DNA from: Anaerolineae bacterium
GTDB taxonomy: Bacteria; Chloroflexota; Anaerolineae; Aggregatilineales; Phototrophicaceae
Direction of reading: 5' to 3'
Assembly: GCA_013360465.1 (NCBI GenBank)
Contig: JABWBO010000064.1
Coordinates: 1 to 52,097 of the forward strand
Length of the DNA stretch: 52,097 bases
Positions within the stretch are counted from its first letter, which is position 1. Each line of letters opens with the position of its first letter. Made by a program: the position numbers and the translations under genes. This document shows, piece after piece, positions 23,438 to 30,668 of the stretch. The notes beneath the pieces are model-generated. The model was not told where the DNA came from. It did not search any database and saw only the letters and a list, made by a program, of their open reading frames with translations.

Positions 23438-23610
23438 GTTGCTCTACCTCTGCCCTTGATCTGCTGGTGCAAGGACCCGCCCGTGCATAACCACATCCTG
23501 AAGTATAGTACATCGTCGGCGGATGCGCTCCCGAACATCTGAGCGACTCAAATCATCCTGTGCTGAACCCTCATTTTCGAAGTCGCCCTGAAAGCCTCGA
23601 CGCACTATTC

Positions 23611-23800
23611 CTGAAGTCAGGCATATATCAGGCATATAATTGAGAGACTGTTTGCAAACTGCTCACCTCACCCCGTTTCGCTGCGCTCAACCGCCCCTCT
23701 CCAATTGGAGAGGGGCAGGAAACCGTCAGGTTTCCGGGGGGGTGAGATTGTGTGAAAATCGGCTTTTCAAACAGTCTCTGAAGTTAGGCATATAATTGAG
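23611..23800 (+). promoter_or_regulatory. Promoter segment duplicated on both sides of a miniature element
   Basis: GGCATATAATTG occurs at 23631-23642 and again in GAAGTTAGGCATATAATTG at 23780-23798. Each copy contains TATAAT. The left copy has an extra 11-bp tandem unit TCAGGCATATA. The right TATAAT at 23791-23796 is 77 bp upstream of the first subtilase gene. It looks like an ancestral promoter -10 region copied when the element between them was inserted. Confidence 0.55.
23643..23779. mobile_element. 137-bp MITE-like element, copy 1
   Basis: Perfect 12-bp terminal inverted repeats AGAGACTGTTTG and CAAACAGTCTCT bound a non-coding unit. Inside is the CCTCACCCC...GGGGTGAG palindrome with a CCCTCTCCAATTGGAGAGGG core and GGAAACC/GGTTTCC arms. 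An inverted near-copy lies at 29428-29561. No transposase is in the window. Confidence 0.8.
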
Positions 23801-23872
23801 GATGTTCGACGCCGCATTGAATCGCTGCCGCCCGGTTGAACCTGAAATTTCCATATTGAAGAGGATTGCCTC

Positions 23873-26611
23873 ATGACACTGCGTTTCGGCACACGCACCT
23901 GCTCTCTGCTGCTATTCATCGCCCTGGCAGCGCTGCTTTCGATCATGCCAGCGGCGGCGCAGGACACCGACAGCGGAGATACCGCGCGTTCGGAAGTGGT
24001 GACGGATGGACCTTATTACTATGCCAGCGGGGAGCGCGTCGCCGTCGGCGTTTCGACGGAACTCGTCGCCATCCGCCTCGCGCCCATCGCCGCTGTCGGC
24101 GCGCCGGCGGATGCCCTGGCGCGTCTGGAGTCGCTGGCGCAGGTCTTCCCGAATCTGGGCGATTCCGCTGCCGCCACTCAGCCGGCGCTTCTTGCCGGGT
24201 ACGACTTCTACCTGGTCCCCCTGACAGGCGTGGCGACCGGCGATCAGGCGCTCGCCCTGGTTGAAGCGCTGCGCGGTTCCAGCGCGCTCGCGGCGTGGGT
24301 CAACCCGGTCTTCACCTATGATCAGGCGAAGCTGGTGCTGAACGACGAGATCATCGCCGGCTTCCCGGCAGGGACTCCGCAGAGCGTCGTGGACGCCTAC
24401 AACGCCGCCAACGGCGTCGAACAGGTGCGCGTCCTCTCGCCCGATGTCTACGTGCTGCGGGTGACCGCCGCCGCCGGGGTAGATGCCCTGGAGATGGCGA
24501 ACCGCTACGAAACCGGCGGGGTGGCAAGTTATGGTGAGCCGAACTTCGTGCAGCTGCTCCCGCCGCCGGACGGACGTTCGCGCGACGCCTTCGGACCGGG
24601 CGATGCGCGCCCGCCGCAGCCCGCCGCACCCGGCGGATCGGCATCTGCCGACGGTATCGGACCCCTGTTCGTGCCCAACGACACCTATGCGACCTGGAAC
24701 TGGCACATCAACAATACCGAGCAGACGCCGCACGCTTCGTACGTCGGGCTGACCAGCGACGCCGATATCGACGGTTACGAAGCCTGGGACATCACCCAGG
24801 GGTCGAACACCGTCATCATCGCCGTCCTGGACGACGGCATGCAGCTCGCCCACCCCGATCTGAACGACAAGGTGGTCTTCCCGCGCGATGTCGCCGTCAG
24901 CCCGAACGACGATGACCCGTCGCCCACCGACACCGCCGAGCAGCGCGCCGAAGATGCGCACGGCACGCACGCCGCCGGCGTCGCCGCCGCCGAGACCAAC
25001 AACGCTGCCGGCGCGATGGGCGTCTGCATCAACTGCAAGCTGATGCCGATTCGCATCGCCTACACCTCTGGCGGCAACTGGGTGGCGACCGATGCCAACA
25101 TCGCCACCGGCATTGACTGGGCGCGCACCCATGGCGCGCACGTCCTGAGCAACAGCTGGGGTGGCGGTTCGCCTTCGACCAGCGTCACCAACGCCTTCAA
25201 GAACGCCGTGATGAATGGGCGCGGCGGCTTGGGGTCGGTGGTGGTCATCGCCGCCGCCAACACCTATCAGGCGACCGTCGCTTATCCCGGCAGGCTGTCC
25301 AACATGCTGGGCGGCATCGTCACCGTCGGGGCGAGCAACTGGTGTGACACCATCAAACAGCCGGACCCGCCCGGCGACTGCTCCGGCGAATACTGGTGGG
25401 GCAATAACTGGGGCACAGAGGTCGTCGTCACCGCGCCGGGACACTCCATCACCTCCCCCGACCTGCTGGGCACGGACGGCTATTCGGGCAGCGGCGGGCC
25501 GATCCCCAGCGATGACTACACCCAGTTCAACGGGACGAGCAGCGCCACGCCGCTGACCGCCGGCATCGCCGGGCTGCTGGTCTCGCAGAACCCCGGCTGG
25601 ACCGCCGACCAGGTGCGCGACCGACTCGCCACCAGCACCGACCCGATCTACGCCGCCGGCTATGACATCGCCTCTGGGTGGGGGCGGGTGAACGCCCAGA
25701 AGGCGCTGAACAACACGACCACCAACAGCGGCACGCCCAACGATCACCTGAACAGCGCCCTGGTGATCAATACCGTACCCTTCACCACCACCCAGGCGGT
25801 CTCCGGCACGTTCATGGACCGCACCGATCCGCTGTTCGCCTGCCTGCCCGCCGACGAGATCGGCTCGAACAGCGTCTGGTTCAAGTTCGTCCCGCCGTAC
25901 AGCATGACGGCGACCATCGACACCATCGGCAGCAGCTACGACACCGTGCTGGGGGTCTACAACACAGCGCTCACCTCGCTGGCATGTAACGATCAGTTCA
26001 GCGGCAACCAGTCGCAGGTCTTGGTCGCGCTGACCGGCGGCACGACCTATTACATCCAGGTCGGCGACTGGACGTCGACCGGCGGAATGTATGGCACGAT
26101 GGGCAACAGCAGCCTGACTCTGAACATCACCACCGTCACCCCCGCGCCCGGCCCCAACCTGAGCGGCACGGTGGTCTTCCAGGGACGCCCGGCAGCGCCC
26201 AACCCGCTGCTGTCGGTCCCGCTGCACGTCATCATCAAGCCGACGGGCGGCGGCGCAGCCGTTTTCGACGGCATGGTGGCGTCTAACAACAGCGGCGTCT
26301 TCAGCCTGAACGTGCCGGCGGGCAATTACAACGTCTGGGTCAAAGGCGCGCACACGCTGGCGAACATGAGTACGATCAACCTCGCCGGCAACGTGGCGCA
26401 CAACTTCGGCACGCTGAAGGAGGGCGACGCCAACGACAACAACGTCGTCAACATCAGCGATTTCTCGCTGCTGGCGTCGGCGTTCGGCTCGTGGGTCGGA
26501 CAGCCGGGGTATAACGCGGCTGCCGACTTCAACGGCGACAGCATAGTCAACATCAGCGACTTCTCGATACTGGCGTCGAATTTCGCGCAGAGCGGCGCGC
26601 CCGCGCCATGA
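23873..26611 (+). CDS. Secreted subtilase (S8) with dockerin-like C-terminus
   Basis: A 912-residue exported protease. Residues 1-29 are a signal peptide, about 30-250 a prodomain, and about 265-625 the S8 catalytic domain. The triad is complete: D320 in VIIAVLDDGMQLAHPDL, H363 in EDAHGTHAAG and S556 in NGTSSATPLTAG, with an oxyanion Asn in IAAANTYQ. A pre-peptidase C-terminal-like domain follows (VWFKFVPPYSMTATIDTIG), then a carboxypeptidase-regulatory-like sandwich, and finally two dockerin-type calcium loops (GDANDNNVVNISDFSLLAS and DFNGDSIVNISDFSILAS). No cohesin is seen nearby. A tandem paralogue lies 115 bp downstream. Confidence 0.94.
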   Translation: MTLRFGTRTCSLLLFIALAALLSIMPAAAQDTDSGDTARSEVVTDGPYYYASGERVAVGVSTELVAIRLAPIAAVGAPADALARLESLAQVFPNLGDSAAATQPALLAGYDFYLVPLTGVATGDQALALVEALRGSSALAAWVNPVFTYDQAKLVLNDEIIAGFPAGTPQSVVDAYNAANGVEQVRVLSPDVYVLRVTAAAGVDALEMANRYETGGVASYGEPNFVQLLPPPDGRSRDAFGPGDARPPQPAAPGGSASADGIGPLFVPNDTYATWNWHINNTEQTPHASYVGLTSDADIDGYEAWDITQGSNTVIIAVLDDGMQLAHPDLNDKVVFPRDVAVSPNDDDPSPTDTAEQRAEDAHGTHAAGVAAAETNNAAGAMGVCINCKLMPIRIAYTSGGNWVATDANIATGIDWARTHGAHVLSNSWGGGSPSTSVTNAFKNAVMNGRGGLGSVVVIAAANTYQATVAYPGRLSNMLGGIVTVGASNWCDTIKQPDPPGDCSGEYWWGNNWGTEVVVTAPGHSITSPDLLGTDGYSGSGGPIPSDDYTQFNGTSSATPLTAGIAGLLVSQNPGWTADQVRDRLATSTDPIYAAGYDIASGWGRVNAQKALNNTTTNSGTPNDHLNSALVINTVPFTTTQAVSGTFMDRTDPLFACLPADEIGSNSVWFKFVPPYSMTATIDTIGSSYDTVLGVYNTALTSLACNDQFSGNQSQVLVALTGGTTYYIQVGDWTSTGGMYGTMGNSSLTLNITTVTPAPGPNLSGTVVFQGRPAAPNPLLSVPLHVIIKPTGGGAAVFDGMVASNNSGVFSLNVPAGNYNVWVKGAHTLANMSTINLAGNVAHNFGTLKEGDANDNNVVNISDFSLLASAFGSWVGQPGYNAAADFNGDSIVNISDFSILASNFAQSGAPAP

Positions 26612-26652
26612 GCGGCGGCATATCGACCATGATCTGATTCGGGTTTCACCAT

Positions 26653-26658
26653 TACAAT
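26653..26658 (+). promoter_or_regulatory. -10-like box (TACAAT) of the second subtilase
   Basis: TACAAT in ATTACAATGAGG lies 69 bp before the ATG at 26727, and GAGGAA is well placed before the start. The same ..TTACAATGAG context precedes the HEAT-protein gene at 30950. No clear -35 box. Confidence 0.4.
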
Positions 26659-26726
26659 GAGGGCGGGGCGGCGCAGGATGCCGCACCCGCTCTTTTTTCA
26701 GGACGTGATGGTTGAGGAACCGGCTC

Positions 26727-29408
26727 ATGGGTGTATGGATTTTACGGGCGCACGGCGCTGCCTGGATGATGCTGACGGCGCTGCTGCTCATCTCGATTTC
26801 GGCGTTCGGCGCGGCGGCGCAGACCCCCGAACTTTACTACTATGCGCTGGGCGAACCGGTTTCGCTCGCGCTATCTGCTCGCTACGTCGCGATCGGCGGC
26901 GCAGTCGCACCGGACGGCGGTCAGGCGCTTGCCCTGACCGCCGCGTTCACGGCGCTGGAAAGTGACGCGCTGCCCTTGCAGCCGGGCATACACGCCGGGA
27001 TGAATTTCACGCTGCTGCCGCTCGCCGGCGGGACTTCGGAACGGGAGCGCGCCGCCCTGGTGGACGCGATGCGCGCGGCGGCGCTGCCCGTCGAGTGGGT
27101 CAATCCGGTCTTCGAGCGGGCGGGGTCGCTGCTGGTGCTGACCGACGAATTCCTGGCGACGTTTCCCGCCGGTACGCCCCGCACCGGCATTGACGCCCTG
27201 AACACCGCCAACGGGGTCGAAATCGCCCGGCAGATCGACGGCGGCGCGGCGGGCGATGTGTACCTGCTGCGCGTCACGGCGGGCACGGGCGTCGATGCGC
27301 TGACGATGGCGAACCGCTATCACACCGGCGGAGTCGCCCTGCACGCCGAGCCGAACTGGGCGATCCTCACCCAACCGCCGACGGTTGACGCCTTCGAGGC
27401 AATGCCCACCGAGACGGTCGGGGCGGCAGCCGCGCCGGGCGCGCAGTTCGTCGTCGAACCGCAGTACACGCCCAACGATACCTACTATGCCAACGGCTGG
27501 CATATGAACAACTATCAGCAGTTCGTCCAGTATCAGTCGTCGATGGTCTACGACGCCGACATCGACGCCAAGGAAGCCTGGGACACGCAGCGGGGGTCGG
27601 CATCGGTGATCATCGCCATCCTCGACGACGGCGTACAGACCAGCCACCCCGACCTGGACGACAAGATCGTCTTCCCCTACGACGCCATCGGCGGCGACAC
27701 CGATCCACAGCCTTACGACGACGCCATCACCCGCGACTGGGACGCGCTCGGCACGCATCTGGCGGGCTTGGCGGCGGCGGAATCGGATAACAGCCAGGGC
27801 ATCACCGGGGTGTGTCACGCCTGCAAGATCATGCCCATCCGCATCCACTACAGCTATTTCGACGGCGCGGACCGCCTGCTCTTCACCACCATCGAAGCCA
27901 TCGTCGCCGGCATCAACTGGGCGGAAGACAACGGCGCGGCGGTGCTGAACAACAGTTGGATCGACCCCAACCCTTCGACGACGGTCGCCGATGCGCTGCG
28001 CAGCGCATCGGTCAATGGGCGCGGCGGGTTGGGGTCGGTGCTGGTTTTCGCGGCGGGCAACAGCTACCAGTTCCTCGTCTCCTGGCCCGGCAAGCTGGCG
28101 TCGGTCCTGCCCGGCGCGATCACCGTCGGCGCGAGTACCTGGTGCGACACCGTGAAGGTGGACAGCGTGAACACCCCGGAGAGCGACGACTGCACCACCG
28201 ATCACGGTTGGGGCAACAACTGGGGGACGGAGATCGGCTTGTCCGCGCCGGGGCATTTCCTGCCCTCCACCGACCTGACCGGGACGGACGGCTACGTCAA
28301 CGGCGACTACACCGGCAATATCGGCGGGACGAGCGTGGTAGCGCCGATTGTCGCCGGCGCTGCCGGGCTGGTCCTTTCCCAGAACCCCGGCTTCACCAAT
28401 GATCAGGTGCGCGACCGCCTGCTGACCAGCACCGATCCGCTGCACACCGACGGCTACGATACGGCATCGGGCTGGGGGCGGCTGAACGTGCAGAAGGCGG
28501 TGACCAATACCATCACCAACGCCGGCACGCCCAATGATCACCTGGACAGCGCCGTCAGCATCACGACGCTGCCCTACAGCACGTCGCAGACCGTCGTCGG
28601 GGCATTCACCGACCGCACCGACCCGGCGCTGGCGTGCCTGACCAGCAGCCAGCTGGTTTCGAACACGGTCTGGTTCAAATTCACGCCGGCGTACACCATG
28701 ACGGTCAACGCCTTCACCTTCGGCTACAACACCGTGATGGGCGTCTATGACCCCGCCATGACCTCGGTCGCCTGCAACAACGATGTCGCGCCGGGCGTCA
28801 CCTGGTCGCAGTTCAACTTCACGGCGGTGGCGGGCACGACCTACAGCTTCCTGATCGGCGACCTGACCCCCGCCTCCAACCCCGACGGCTCCAGCCCGCC
28901 GGCGCAGCTGGTCTTCAGCCTGTCCACCACCACCCCGCCGCCGACGGGCAGCCTCAACGGATCGGTGCTGCTGGAAGGGCGTCCCGCGCCGCCGGACCCG
29001 GTGTGGAGTGTGCCGCTGCACGTCGTGGTCAAGCCGACCAGCGGCGGCGCGGCGGCGTTCGACGGGACGATCACCACCGGCTTGAGCGGCGAATTCATTG
29101 TCAGCAATCTGGCGGTGGGCGAATATGACATCTGGGCGAAGGGCGCGCACACCCTGTCGAACAGGGTCACGGCGGCGATCAGCGGCGAGACGCCGGTCAG
29201 CGTCGGCACGCTGAAAGAAGGCGACGCCAACGACGACAACACGGTCGGTATCGGCGACTTCTCGATCCTGGCGGCGGCATTCGGTTCGACGGAGGGCGGA
29301 GCGAATTACGACGCCCGCGCCGACTTCAACGCCGATGGGGCGGTGAACATCGCCGACTTTTCGCTGCTGGCGGCGAATTTCGGTCAGTCGGGCGTGGCGC
29401 AGCCCTAG
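26727..29408 (+). CDS. Secreted subtilase paralogue with catalytic His replaced by Leu
   Basis: An 893-residue tandem paralogue of the preceding gene with the same order: signal peptide to about 32, prodomain, S8 fold, C-terminal beta domains, dockerin-like loops (GDANDDNTVGIGDFSILAA, DFNADGAVNIADFSLLAA). D300 (VIIAILDDGVQTSHPDL) and S536 (NIGGTSVVAPIVAG) are kept, and the oxyanion Asn in FAAGNSYQ. At the histidine position, where the first protein reads AHGTHAAG, this one reads ALGTHLAG, so the catalytic His is L341 (codon CTC at 27747-27749). The rest of the fold is intact and the frame open, so it is probably an expressed pseudoprotease. The ATG at 26727 was chosen for GAGGAA upstream. Confidence 0.92.
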   Translation: MGVWILRAHGAAWMMLTALLLISISAFGAAAQTPELYYYALGEPVSLALSARYVAIGGAVAPDGGQALALTAAFTALESDALPLQPGIHAGMNFTLLPLAGGTSERERAALVDAMRAAALPVEWVNPVFERAGSLLVLTDEFLATFPAGTPRTGIDALNTANGVEIARQIDGGAAGDVYLLRVTAGTGVDALTMANRYHTGGVALHAEPNWAILTQPPTVDAFEAMPTETVGAAAAPGAQFVVEPQYTPNDTYYANGWHMNNYQQFVQYQSSMVYDADIDAKEAWDTQRGSASVIIAILDDGVQTSHPDLDDKIVFPYDAIGGDTDPQPYDDAITRDWDALGTHLAGLAAAESDNSQGITGVCHACKIMPIRIHYSYFDGADRLLFTTIEAIVAGINWAEDNGAAVLNNSWIDPNPSTTVADALRSASVNGRGGLGSVLVFAAGNSYQFLVSWPGKLASVLPGAITVGASTWCDTVKVDSVNTPESDDCTTDHGWGNNWGTEIGLSAPGHFLPSTDLTGTDGYVNGDYTGNIGGTSVVAPIVAGAAGLVLSQNPGFTNDQVRDRLLTSTDPLHTDGYDTASGWGRLNVQKAVTNTITNAGTPNDHLDSAVSITTLPYSTSQTVVGAFTDRTDPALACLTSSQLVSNTVWFKFTPAYTMTVNAFTFGYNTVMGVYDPAMTSVACNNDVAPGVTWSQFNFTAVAGTTYSFLIGDLTPASNPDGSSPPAQLVFSLSTTTPPPTGSLNGSVLLEGRPAPPDPVWSVPLHVVVKPTSGGAAAFDGTITTGLSGEFIVSNLAVGEYDIWAKGAHTLSNRVTAAISGETPVSVGTLKEGDANDDNTVGIGDFSILAAAFGSTEGGANYDARADFNADGAVNIADFSLLAANFGQSGVAQP

Positions 29409-29427
29409 AGCGCCTCTGAGGTATCTA

Positions 29428-29561
29428 AGAGCGTGTCTGCAAAGCCGGTTTTCACACAACCTCACCCCGGAAACCTGACGGTTTCCTGCCCCTCTGCAAT
29501 TGGAGAGGGGCGGTTGAGCGCAGCGAAACGGGGTGAGGTGAGCAGTTTGCAAACAGTCTCT
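29428..29561. mobile_element. 134-bp MITE-like element, copy 2 (inverted)
   Basis: This is the reverse complement of copy 1 at 23643-23779 over nearly its whole length, ending in CAAACAGTCTCT at 29550-29561. Its other end reads AGAGCGTGTCTG, three changes from the perfect terminal repeat. The two copies bracket the subtilase pair. Confidence 0.8.
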
Positions 29562-29750
29562 AAGGCTTTTCCAGACAAAAGACGCGCCAGCGGTTGCAGG
29601 GGCGAACCCACGTGTTCGCCCGTGAACGGCGGGCGGAGACACAGCTCCGCCCCTACAACTGCTCGATTATTTTCTTGGAACAGCCTAACGCGGCGAAACG
29701 GGGTGAGGTCAGGCTGCCCGTGAGTCACTGAATTTGAACGCGCTTCTTCG
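29562..29750. other. Gene-free tail with further repeat debris
   Basis: Contains GGGGCGAACCCACGTGTTCG and CGGGCGGAGACACAGCTCCG, two short palindromic units, and a GAAACGGGGTGAGGT fragment at about 29696-29710 matching the edge of the miniature element. No gene seen. Confidence 0.5.
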
Positions 29751-30668
29751 CTACTTCTGGAGCGTCAGTTTGAAGTGATTCGCCGCCGCCCACGCCGACT
29801 TGGTGACGTTCGGCTCCTGGTCGTAGAAATCGAACTGAATGCCCGGCATCCAGTAGATTTCCTTCGGCGCGGTCAGGCGGGCATAGAACTTGCGCGCGCC
29901 TTCGGGGATCGCCGCGTTTTCGCCGTGAATGATCAGCGTGGGGACGCGCACGTCGTCCGCCGCGACCGTGCCATCAAATTCCAGCCAGGGACGCCATGAC
30001 ATGATGTTGAACTGGTTGGGCCACTGCGGAACCGCGCCCCGGTTGGAGTTGAGATAGTAGTCGATGAATTCCGCCGGGAAGTTCATCCCCGCGCGGGCGT
30101 CGGTCGGGCTGGCGGCAGGGACATATTCCTCTTCGCCCGTCGTCTCGTATTTCTCCTTTGCCGTATCCGCCAAACTGATGCGCCAGGCGACGCCTTCCGC
30201 CCCGCCGTAGACCGAGCGCATGATCTCGATGTCGTGCAGCCAGGGGGCGAGCAGGGTCAGCGACTTGATGCGCGCGTCGCGCCCCGCCGCATACGCCATG
30301 TAGCCGGAGCTGGCGCACACGCCCAGCCCGCCGACGCGCTCCGAATCGACGAAAGGGAGCGTCTGCGCGAAGGTCACGGCGTTGAGGATGTCCTGAATCT
30401 TGTCCGGCGGGTATTCGTACTGGCGCGGCGCGCCGCCGCTTTCGCCCCAGTGCCGGAAGTCGAAGGTGAGCGCGGGAATCCCTTCGGCAGCCATGCGGCT
30501 GGCGTAGAGGTTCGCCATCTGTTCCTTGACCGTCGTCCAGGACCCGGTGACGAGGACGATGGGATAGCGGCGCGTGGGGTCGAAATCGGTGGGCAGAAAA
30601 AGGCTGCCTTTGAGCGTGACGCCCTCGCTTTCGAACGTCACCTCATTCTTGCCACTCGTCCACTGCAT
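29751..30668 (-). CDS. Alpha/beta hydrolase, dienelactone hydrolase/YcjY-like
   Basis: A 305-residue cytoplasmic alpha/beta hydrolase. The first strands read VTLKGSLFLPTDFDPTRRYP and IVLVTGSWTTVKEQ, followed by ALTFDFRHWGESGG. The nucleophile-elbow region is GLGVCASSGYMAYA, a GxCxSxGY form seen in YcjY/dienelactone-hydrolase-like proteins, so it is not obvious whether Cys or Ser attacks. PTLIIHGENAAIPEGARKFY carries the acid loop. The canonical catalytic His is not obvious near the C-terminus. GGAGG lies just before the ATG at 30668. The substrate is unknown. Confidence 0.85.
   Translation of the reverse strand: MQWTSGKNEVTFESEGVTLKGSLFLPTDFDPTRRYPIVLVTGSWTTVKEQMANLYASRMAAEGIPALTFDFRHWGESGGAPRQYEYPPDKIQDILNAVTFAQTLPFVDSERVGGLGVCASSGYMAYAAGRDARIKSLTLLAPWLHDIEIMRSVYGGAEGVAWRISLADTAKEKYETTGEEEYVPAASPTDARAGMNFPAEFIDYYLNSNRGAVPQWPNQFNIMSWRPWLEFDGTVAADDVRVPTLIIHGENAAIPEGARKFYARLTAPKEIYWMPGIQFDFYDQEPNVTKSAWAAANHFKLTLQK

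Follow-up and report, generated by a model that had tools for sequence, protein, structure and literature searches.

How a subtilase that has lost the general base of its catalytic triad can persist beside an intact copy is the question raised by two tandem genes in a stretch of 52,097 nucleotides from an Anaerolineae bacterium of the Phototrophicaceae (assembly GCA_013360465.1, contig JABWBO010000064.1, positions 1 to 52,097 of the forward strand), referred to here as the window. Gene B (26727..29408, forward strand) encodes a secreted S8 protein of 893 residues, and gene A (23873..26611, same strand), directly upstream, a tandem S8 protease of 912 residues with an intact triad and the same architecture; the two proteins are 50% identical over 886 columns (BLASTP). 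Judging from its sequence, gene A would be proteolytically active. The frame of gene B is open for 893 codons from its ATG, as initially annotated, and an alternative TTG start at 26712 would add five codons. Its product begins with a signal peptide-like stretch (residues 1-32, 26727..26822), recognised by eye as a hydrophobic run ending in AAAQ, followed by a propeptide region (residues 33-246, 26823..27464) lying ahead of the stretch, beginning at residue 248, that matches a solved mature subtilase. Pfam profiles then match a Peptidase_S8 domain (PF00082; residues 293-584, 27603..28478; E=1.6e-38, 133.1 bits against a cut-off of 21.8, profile positions 3-288 of 288) and a dockerin type I domain (Dockerin_1; residues 832-882, 29220..29375; E=1.2e-6, 29.0 bits against a cut-off of 22.9); the dockerin of gene A lies at 26423..26578. 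Only these two full-length members of the family were found in the window's own genome. On the reverse strand, open frames at 23912-26791 and 26871-29642 (959 and 923 residues) cover both protease genes and probably result from GC-rich codon usage.

Residues were matched to positions 32, 64, 96, 155 and 221 in subtilisin numbering. The initial annotation had pointed to a leucine in gene B where its upstream twin has the catalytic histidine, with the other catalytic residues retained, and both observations were confirmed. BLASTP aligns DALGTHLAG of gene B with DAHGTHAAG of gene A, so that Leu341 (codon CTC, 27747..27749, in the context gac gcg CTC ggc acg cat) stands opposite the histidine codon CAC at 24959..24961 of gene A, and the alignments place the catalytic Asp300 (27624..27626), the oxyanion-hole Asn445 (28059..28061) and the nucleophile Ser536 in the motif GTSVVAP (28332..28334) at their expected sites. 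Three alignments with solved subtilases were printed. Those with AK.1 protease and thermitase, whose own catalytic histidines are intact, put Leu341 at the histidine, as do the profile and family alignments; the third, with the best solved chain by sequence, Mirolase (8ehe, E=1.2e-22), opens a gap at this site and leaves the Mirolase histidine inside it, opposite gene B. Mirolase is an active protease, and gene B differs from it and from other secreted subtilases of known structure in having no catalytic histidine. By fold gene B is an S8 protein, with the oxyanion asparagine in place and the Asp/His/Ser order broken by Leu341. The S1 loop of gene B (SWIDPN, against SWGGGS in gene A) was considered as a second sign of decay and rejected; it carries no weight, because the triad-intact members C, D and E differ there as well (SYVTVP, SWGQTP and SWTWDD, respectively).

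A sequencing or assembly error at position 27748 could have produced such a leucine, CAC and CTC being a single base apart. A genus search of 15 genomes, including the window's own, found one other genome (G006; contig JAEURA010000296.1, Anaerolineae bacterium MAG-265) with a close orthologue of B, 92% identical, which was also the one locus returned by a scan of genome contigs with the single B protein. The orthologue has leucine at the histidine site too, encoded by CTT instead of CTC. Since a second species, represented by a different genome, has the leucine by way of a different codon, a read error fails to explain Leu341, and this explanation, whose probability we regard as negligible, was ruled out. 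Whether the leucine is fixed in orthologues, a point raised in the initial annotation, can be answered for the two orthologues found in the searches made, both of which have it; the simplest history is therefore that the histidine was lost before the two species split, the two B genes having diverged by 0.166 at synonymous sites. Gene A adjoins gene B upstream in both species, and the A-B order, the intergenic stretch and an upstream response-regulator gene are conserved between them. Similarity stops about 10 bases past the B stop codon (29409-29418; 8683-8692 of L063), and the downstream genes differ. G006 also has a third paralogue, C (L046, G006:C103), with an intact triad.

The wider family was then considered, with members supplied by the genus search and by a family search that covered 98 genomes. 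The catalytic domain of B was aligned with 15 other members (A from the two species, C of G006 and genes of other genomes), five of which are close to each other. Among the 48 columns invariant in the 15 non-B members, B differs in a single one, that of the catalytic histidine, and keeps the other 47, including Asp, Asn, Ser and the GTS motif. Under the same test, between 1 and 4 columns were altered in other lineages and 11 in the five-member group, with the triad and the oxyanion asparagine unaffected in every case. The sole altered invariant column of gene A, in both species, is an alanine in place of the otherwise invariant glycine just before the oxyanion asparagine (25256-25261; AAAN instead of AAGN).

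In a broader survey, limited to the loci retrieved for the present analysis and hence to a subset of the S8 genes of the group, the histidine was present in 90 of the 92 domains covering its column, and the remaining two, both with leucine, were the B orthologues. The 92 were reached from 163 domain rows, after removal of 46 that were identical or contained in others (leaving 117) and of 25 without a residue in the histidine column; 26 of the 92 lack an aligned residue at the serine, and in a few cases the row is a second or partial S8 domain from a single protein. Four relatives (L040, L069, L080 and L082) carry two S8 domains in one frame, with complete triads in both. A sample of the class (396 genomes, E<=1e-60) yielded, besides the window's own genes, six S8 relatives with 35-46% identity, all of which keep the histidine. 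In a tree of 11 catalytic domains B sits inside the family and all nine non-B members have the histidine, which indicates that histidine is ancestral and leucine derived on the B stem. The histidine-bearing paralogue C groups weakly with B as its sister (support 82/80). The B stem, with a length of 0.49, does not exceed the branches of several intact members, and the B tips (0.0085 and 0.025) are not longer than those of A (0.053 and 0.031).

Loss of a catalytic residue could mark a gene recently inactivated and on its way to decay, and selection was compared along both genes, using Nei-Gojobori estimates with 300 codon bootstraps on one genome pair (the window's and G006). In gene B, dN/dS was 0.535 (bootstrap interval 0.324-0.981) for the propeptide (residues 1-246, signal peptide included), 0.097 (0.047-0.190) for the catalytic part (residues 247-590) and 0.180 for the C-terminal part; the corresponding values in gene A were 0.169 (0.069-0.317), 0.223 (0.130-0.363) and 0.309. 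In six Fisher tests, done on rounded counts and left uncorrected, the propeptide of B differed from its own catalytic part (p=2.7e-4) and from the propeptide of A (p=0.0027), and the two catalytic parts differed weakly (p=0.040); no significant contrast was seen between propeptide and catalytic part in A (p=0.20), between the two C-terminal parts (p=0.16), or between the C-terminal part of B and its catalytic part (p=0.22). The excess of change in the propeptide of B extends beyond the signal peptide and the linker, since between these two elements amino acid changes affect 23 of 182 codons in B and 10 of 198 in A. The catalytic domain of gene B is under strong purifying selection and its propeptide is relaxed, a contrast absent from gene A. 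The relaxed propeptide would suit a decaying gene; however, both frames are open, the catalytic domain is strongly constrained, no second invariant site of the 48 has been lost, and the presence of leucine in both species places the loss probably before their split, all of which makes decay very unlikely.

Gene B combines the two features by which an S8 pseudoprotease can be recognised, namely a residue loss common to its orthologues (both of those found) and purifying selection. The proposal of a maintained pseudoprotease in the initial annotation is supported by these results, together with the histidine of the 15 other members. The roles suggested there for gene B, as a binder, an inhibitor or a scaffold of the active neighbour, are more speculative. 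Gene B is probably, if by no means certainly, a maintained S8 pseudoprotease, which most likely would bind without cutting beside its twin A. The combination of a constrained catalytic domain and a relaxed propeptide would be expected if selection acted on a binding surface and not on self-processing.

The conserved part of the protein might instead be its C-terminus, gene B being kept for its dockerin and linker domains with the S8 domain as a passive spacer. Proteins A and B both end in a shared C-terminal module of about 155 residues that includes the dockerin (28938-29405 in B), and this module, constrained in B, has 17 further matches in the genome, mostly in large proteins (including loci L003-L015). 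The genome has 18 dockerin matches, A and B accounting for two of them, and four cohesin matches over the cut-off. Against this, dN/dS among the three parts of B is lowest in the catalytic domain, although its difference from the C-terminal part is not significant, and 47 of the 48 columns invariant in other members are unchanged there. We consider this explanation improbable.

A different objection to a non-cutting B comes from a second histidine. The initial annotation had stated that an alternative histidine in the active site would speak against a pseudoprotease, and at the level of sequence there is a candidate, His374 (codon CAC, 27846..27848). Its column corresponds to Leu96 of subtilisin in the profile alignment and in the alignment with thermitase (VRVL in thermitase, IRIH in B). 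Histidine occurs in this column in two of the 92 surveyed domains, the two B orthologues, both with codon CAC, and in none of the 15 non-B family members; Leu96 of subtilisin is described as lining the substrate groove, at the S4 pocket (PMC5118797). B might then be a rewired protease with His374 as general base, cutting through Asp300/His374/Ser536 with altered specificity. That His374 appears only in the two proteins without the normal histidine, at a position on the groove, and that Asp, Asn, Ser and their surrounding motifs are all kept, would agree with such a rearrangement. Against it, the S4 pocket is where the cited work places Leu96, and the assignment of the column comes from the profile, thermitase and Mirolase alignments (Mirolase having phenylalanine there), while that with AK.1 puts His374 in a gap. 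His364 is likewise found only in B among the catalytic domains of the family, which makes chance a fair explanation of His374 and of its location in the groove; His493, for its part, is absent from A and present in C. The relaxed propeptide also fits a loss of self-processing better. Two AlphaFold models, built from alignments of four sequences, had mean pLDDT values of 29.5 and 29.7, too low for the geometry of the site to be read from them. In the open-licence literature nothing was found on an S2 pocket with L96 and H64 together. A rewired B is unlikely in our judgement, and the fuller claim, that of a natural subtilase with its general base relocated to His374, a working Asp/His/Ser site and a new specificity beside a conventional twin, would be more doubtful. 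Reading B as a dead enzyme nonetheless leaves His374 in the groove unaccounted for.

The effect of losing the histidine alone can be gauged from engineered subtilisin, in which the His64Ala change is reported to lower kcat/KM by six orders of magnitude, and a histidine at P2 of the substrate to raise the activity of the H64A enzyme 400-fold (PMC12018205). B lacks the same residue, with the rest of the triad intact, and differs in being natural, in having leucine instead of alanine and in the presence of His374. The 400-fold gain suggests that B could be silent on most substrates and cut those that supply their own histidine, particularly as Asp, Asn and Ser are kept. Leucine is bulkier than alanine, however, and may occupy the space needed by a substrate histidine, and we hold substrate assistance to have a small chance of being correct. 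Complete retention of Asp, Asn and Ser exceeds the needs of a pure binder, which leaves room for some residual chemistry in B. With so large a drop in kcat/KM (about six orders of magnitude) when subtilisin loses this histidine, B should bind ordinary substrates and not turn them over.

Taking B as a pseudoprotease, the following course of events may be proposed. B would have arisen by duplication among secreted S8 proteases that carry a dockerin. The sequences show that the change from histidine to leucine took place on its stem branch, with the catalytic domain otherwise unchanged at its invariant positions. Without its general base, B would cut far less efficiently, and neither release of its propeptide nor digestion of ordinary substrates would be expected; peptides could still be bound by the groove, the oxyanion hole and the serine. 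Displayed next to A by means of the common C-terminal dockerin, B might capture substrates or protease inhibitors, or bind A itself, without turnover. B may interact with A and might affect it.

A terminator-like hairpin whose 3' end runs into a stretch of T lies between genes A and B (26659..26694, forward strand; -27.2 kcal/mol, z -4.50). Its core is found nowhere else in the window, and by eye its stem is unchanged at the orthologous locus. On account of this strong terminator-like hairpin, the pair is not described here as a simple two-gene operon. A consensus scan of 23440-29760 found no promoter; it gave four terminator-like sites, as many as in shuffled sequences, and the hairpin at 26659-26694 was not among them. 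Only 32 bases separate the hairpin from the ATG of B, which gives a promoter little space; B may rely on read-through, and its amount could fall below that of A. Co-expression of A and B is uncertain, given the strong intergenic hairpin.

Subtilisin-like pseudoproteases are already known from spores of Clostridioides difficile and, as a putative case, from malaria parasites, and the loss of histidine only, in a protein with a dockerin, is a variant of this theme, here in an Anaerolineae-type bacterium. In C. difficile, CspA and CspC are reported as subtilisin-like pseudoproteases with critical non-catalytic roles in germination, alongside the active CspB. In CspC the His and Ser of CspB are replaced by Thr170 and Gly485, and the prodomain stays uncut; the same account describes a jelly-roll insertion, about 130 residues long, in Csp proteins and the production of CspB and CspA as a fusion (PMC6636752). 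Like these, B is a candidate subtilisin-like pseudoprotease with a prodomain, encoded beside a triad-intact member of its family (gene A, in both species). Unlike the Csp proteins as described there, B has lost only the histidine and keeps the serine, is encoded by a gene of its own and has a dockerin. Nor does it have the jelly-roll, since its S8 match spans 292 residues over profile positions 3-288, too short to hold one; without this insertion, and with the serine and the GTS motif, B is not a Csp protein. PIMMS2 of Plasmodium is a subtilisin-like putative pseudoenzyme whose gene lies between SUB1 and SUB3; the orthologues described in that report all lack the GTS motif, most variably lack one or more triad residues, and some have no catalytic histidine (PMC5520436). 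In contrast to these, GTS is intact in B and the same leucine is found in both orthologues. An atypical plant subtilase is also described as acting without protease activity. By analogy, B may in principle work like the Csp and PIMMS2 pseudoproteases. In the open-licence literature nothing was found that joins subtilase, dockerin and Chloroflexi, which does not imply absence from print, and none of the papers found there on pseudoproteases and subtilisin dealt with a dockerin or with Anaerolineae.

Gene B is a clear natural example of a subtilase that has lost its catalytic histidine, with the other 47 invariant positions tested kept and the domain still under strong selection. Together with its twin, it is well suited to asking how a dead subtilase persists, be it through substrate capture, as an inhibitor sink or as a partner of the intact copy, and also whether a subtilase may work with a relocated or borrowed histidine.
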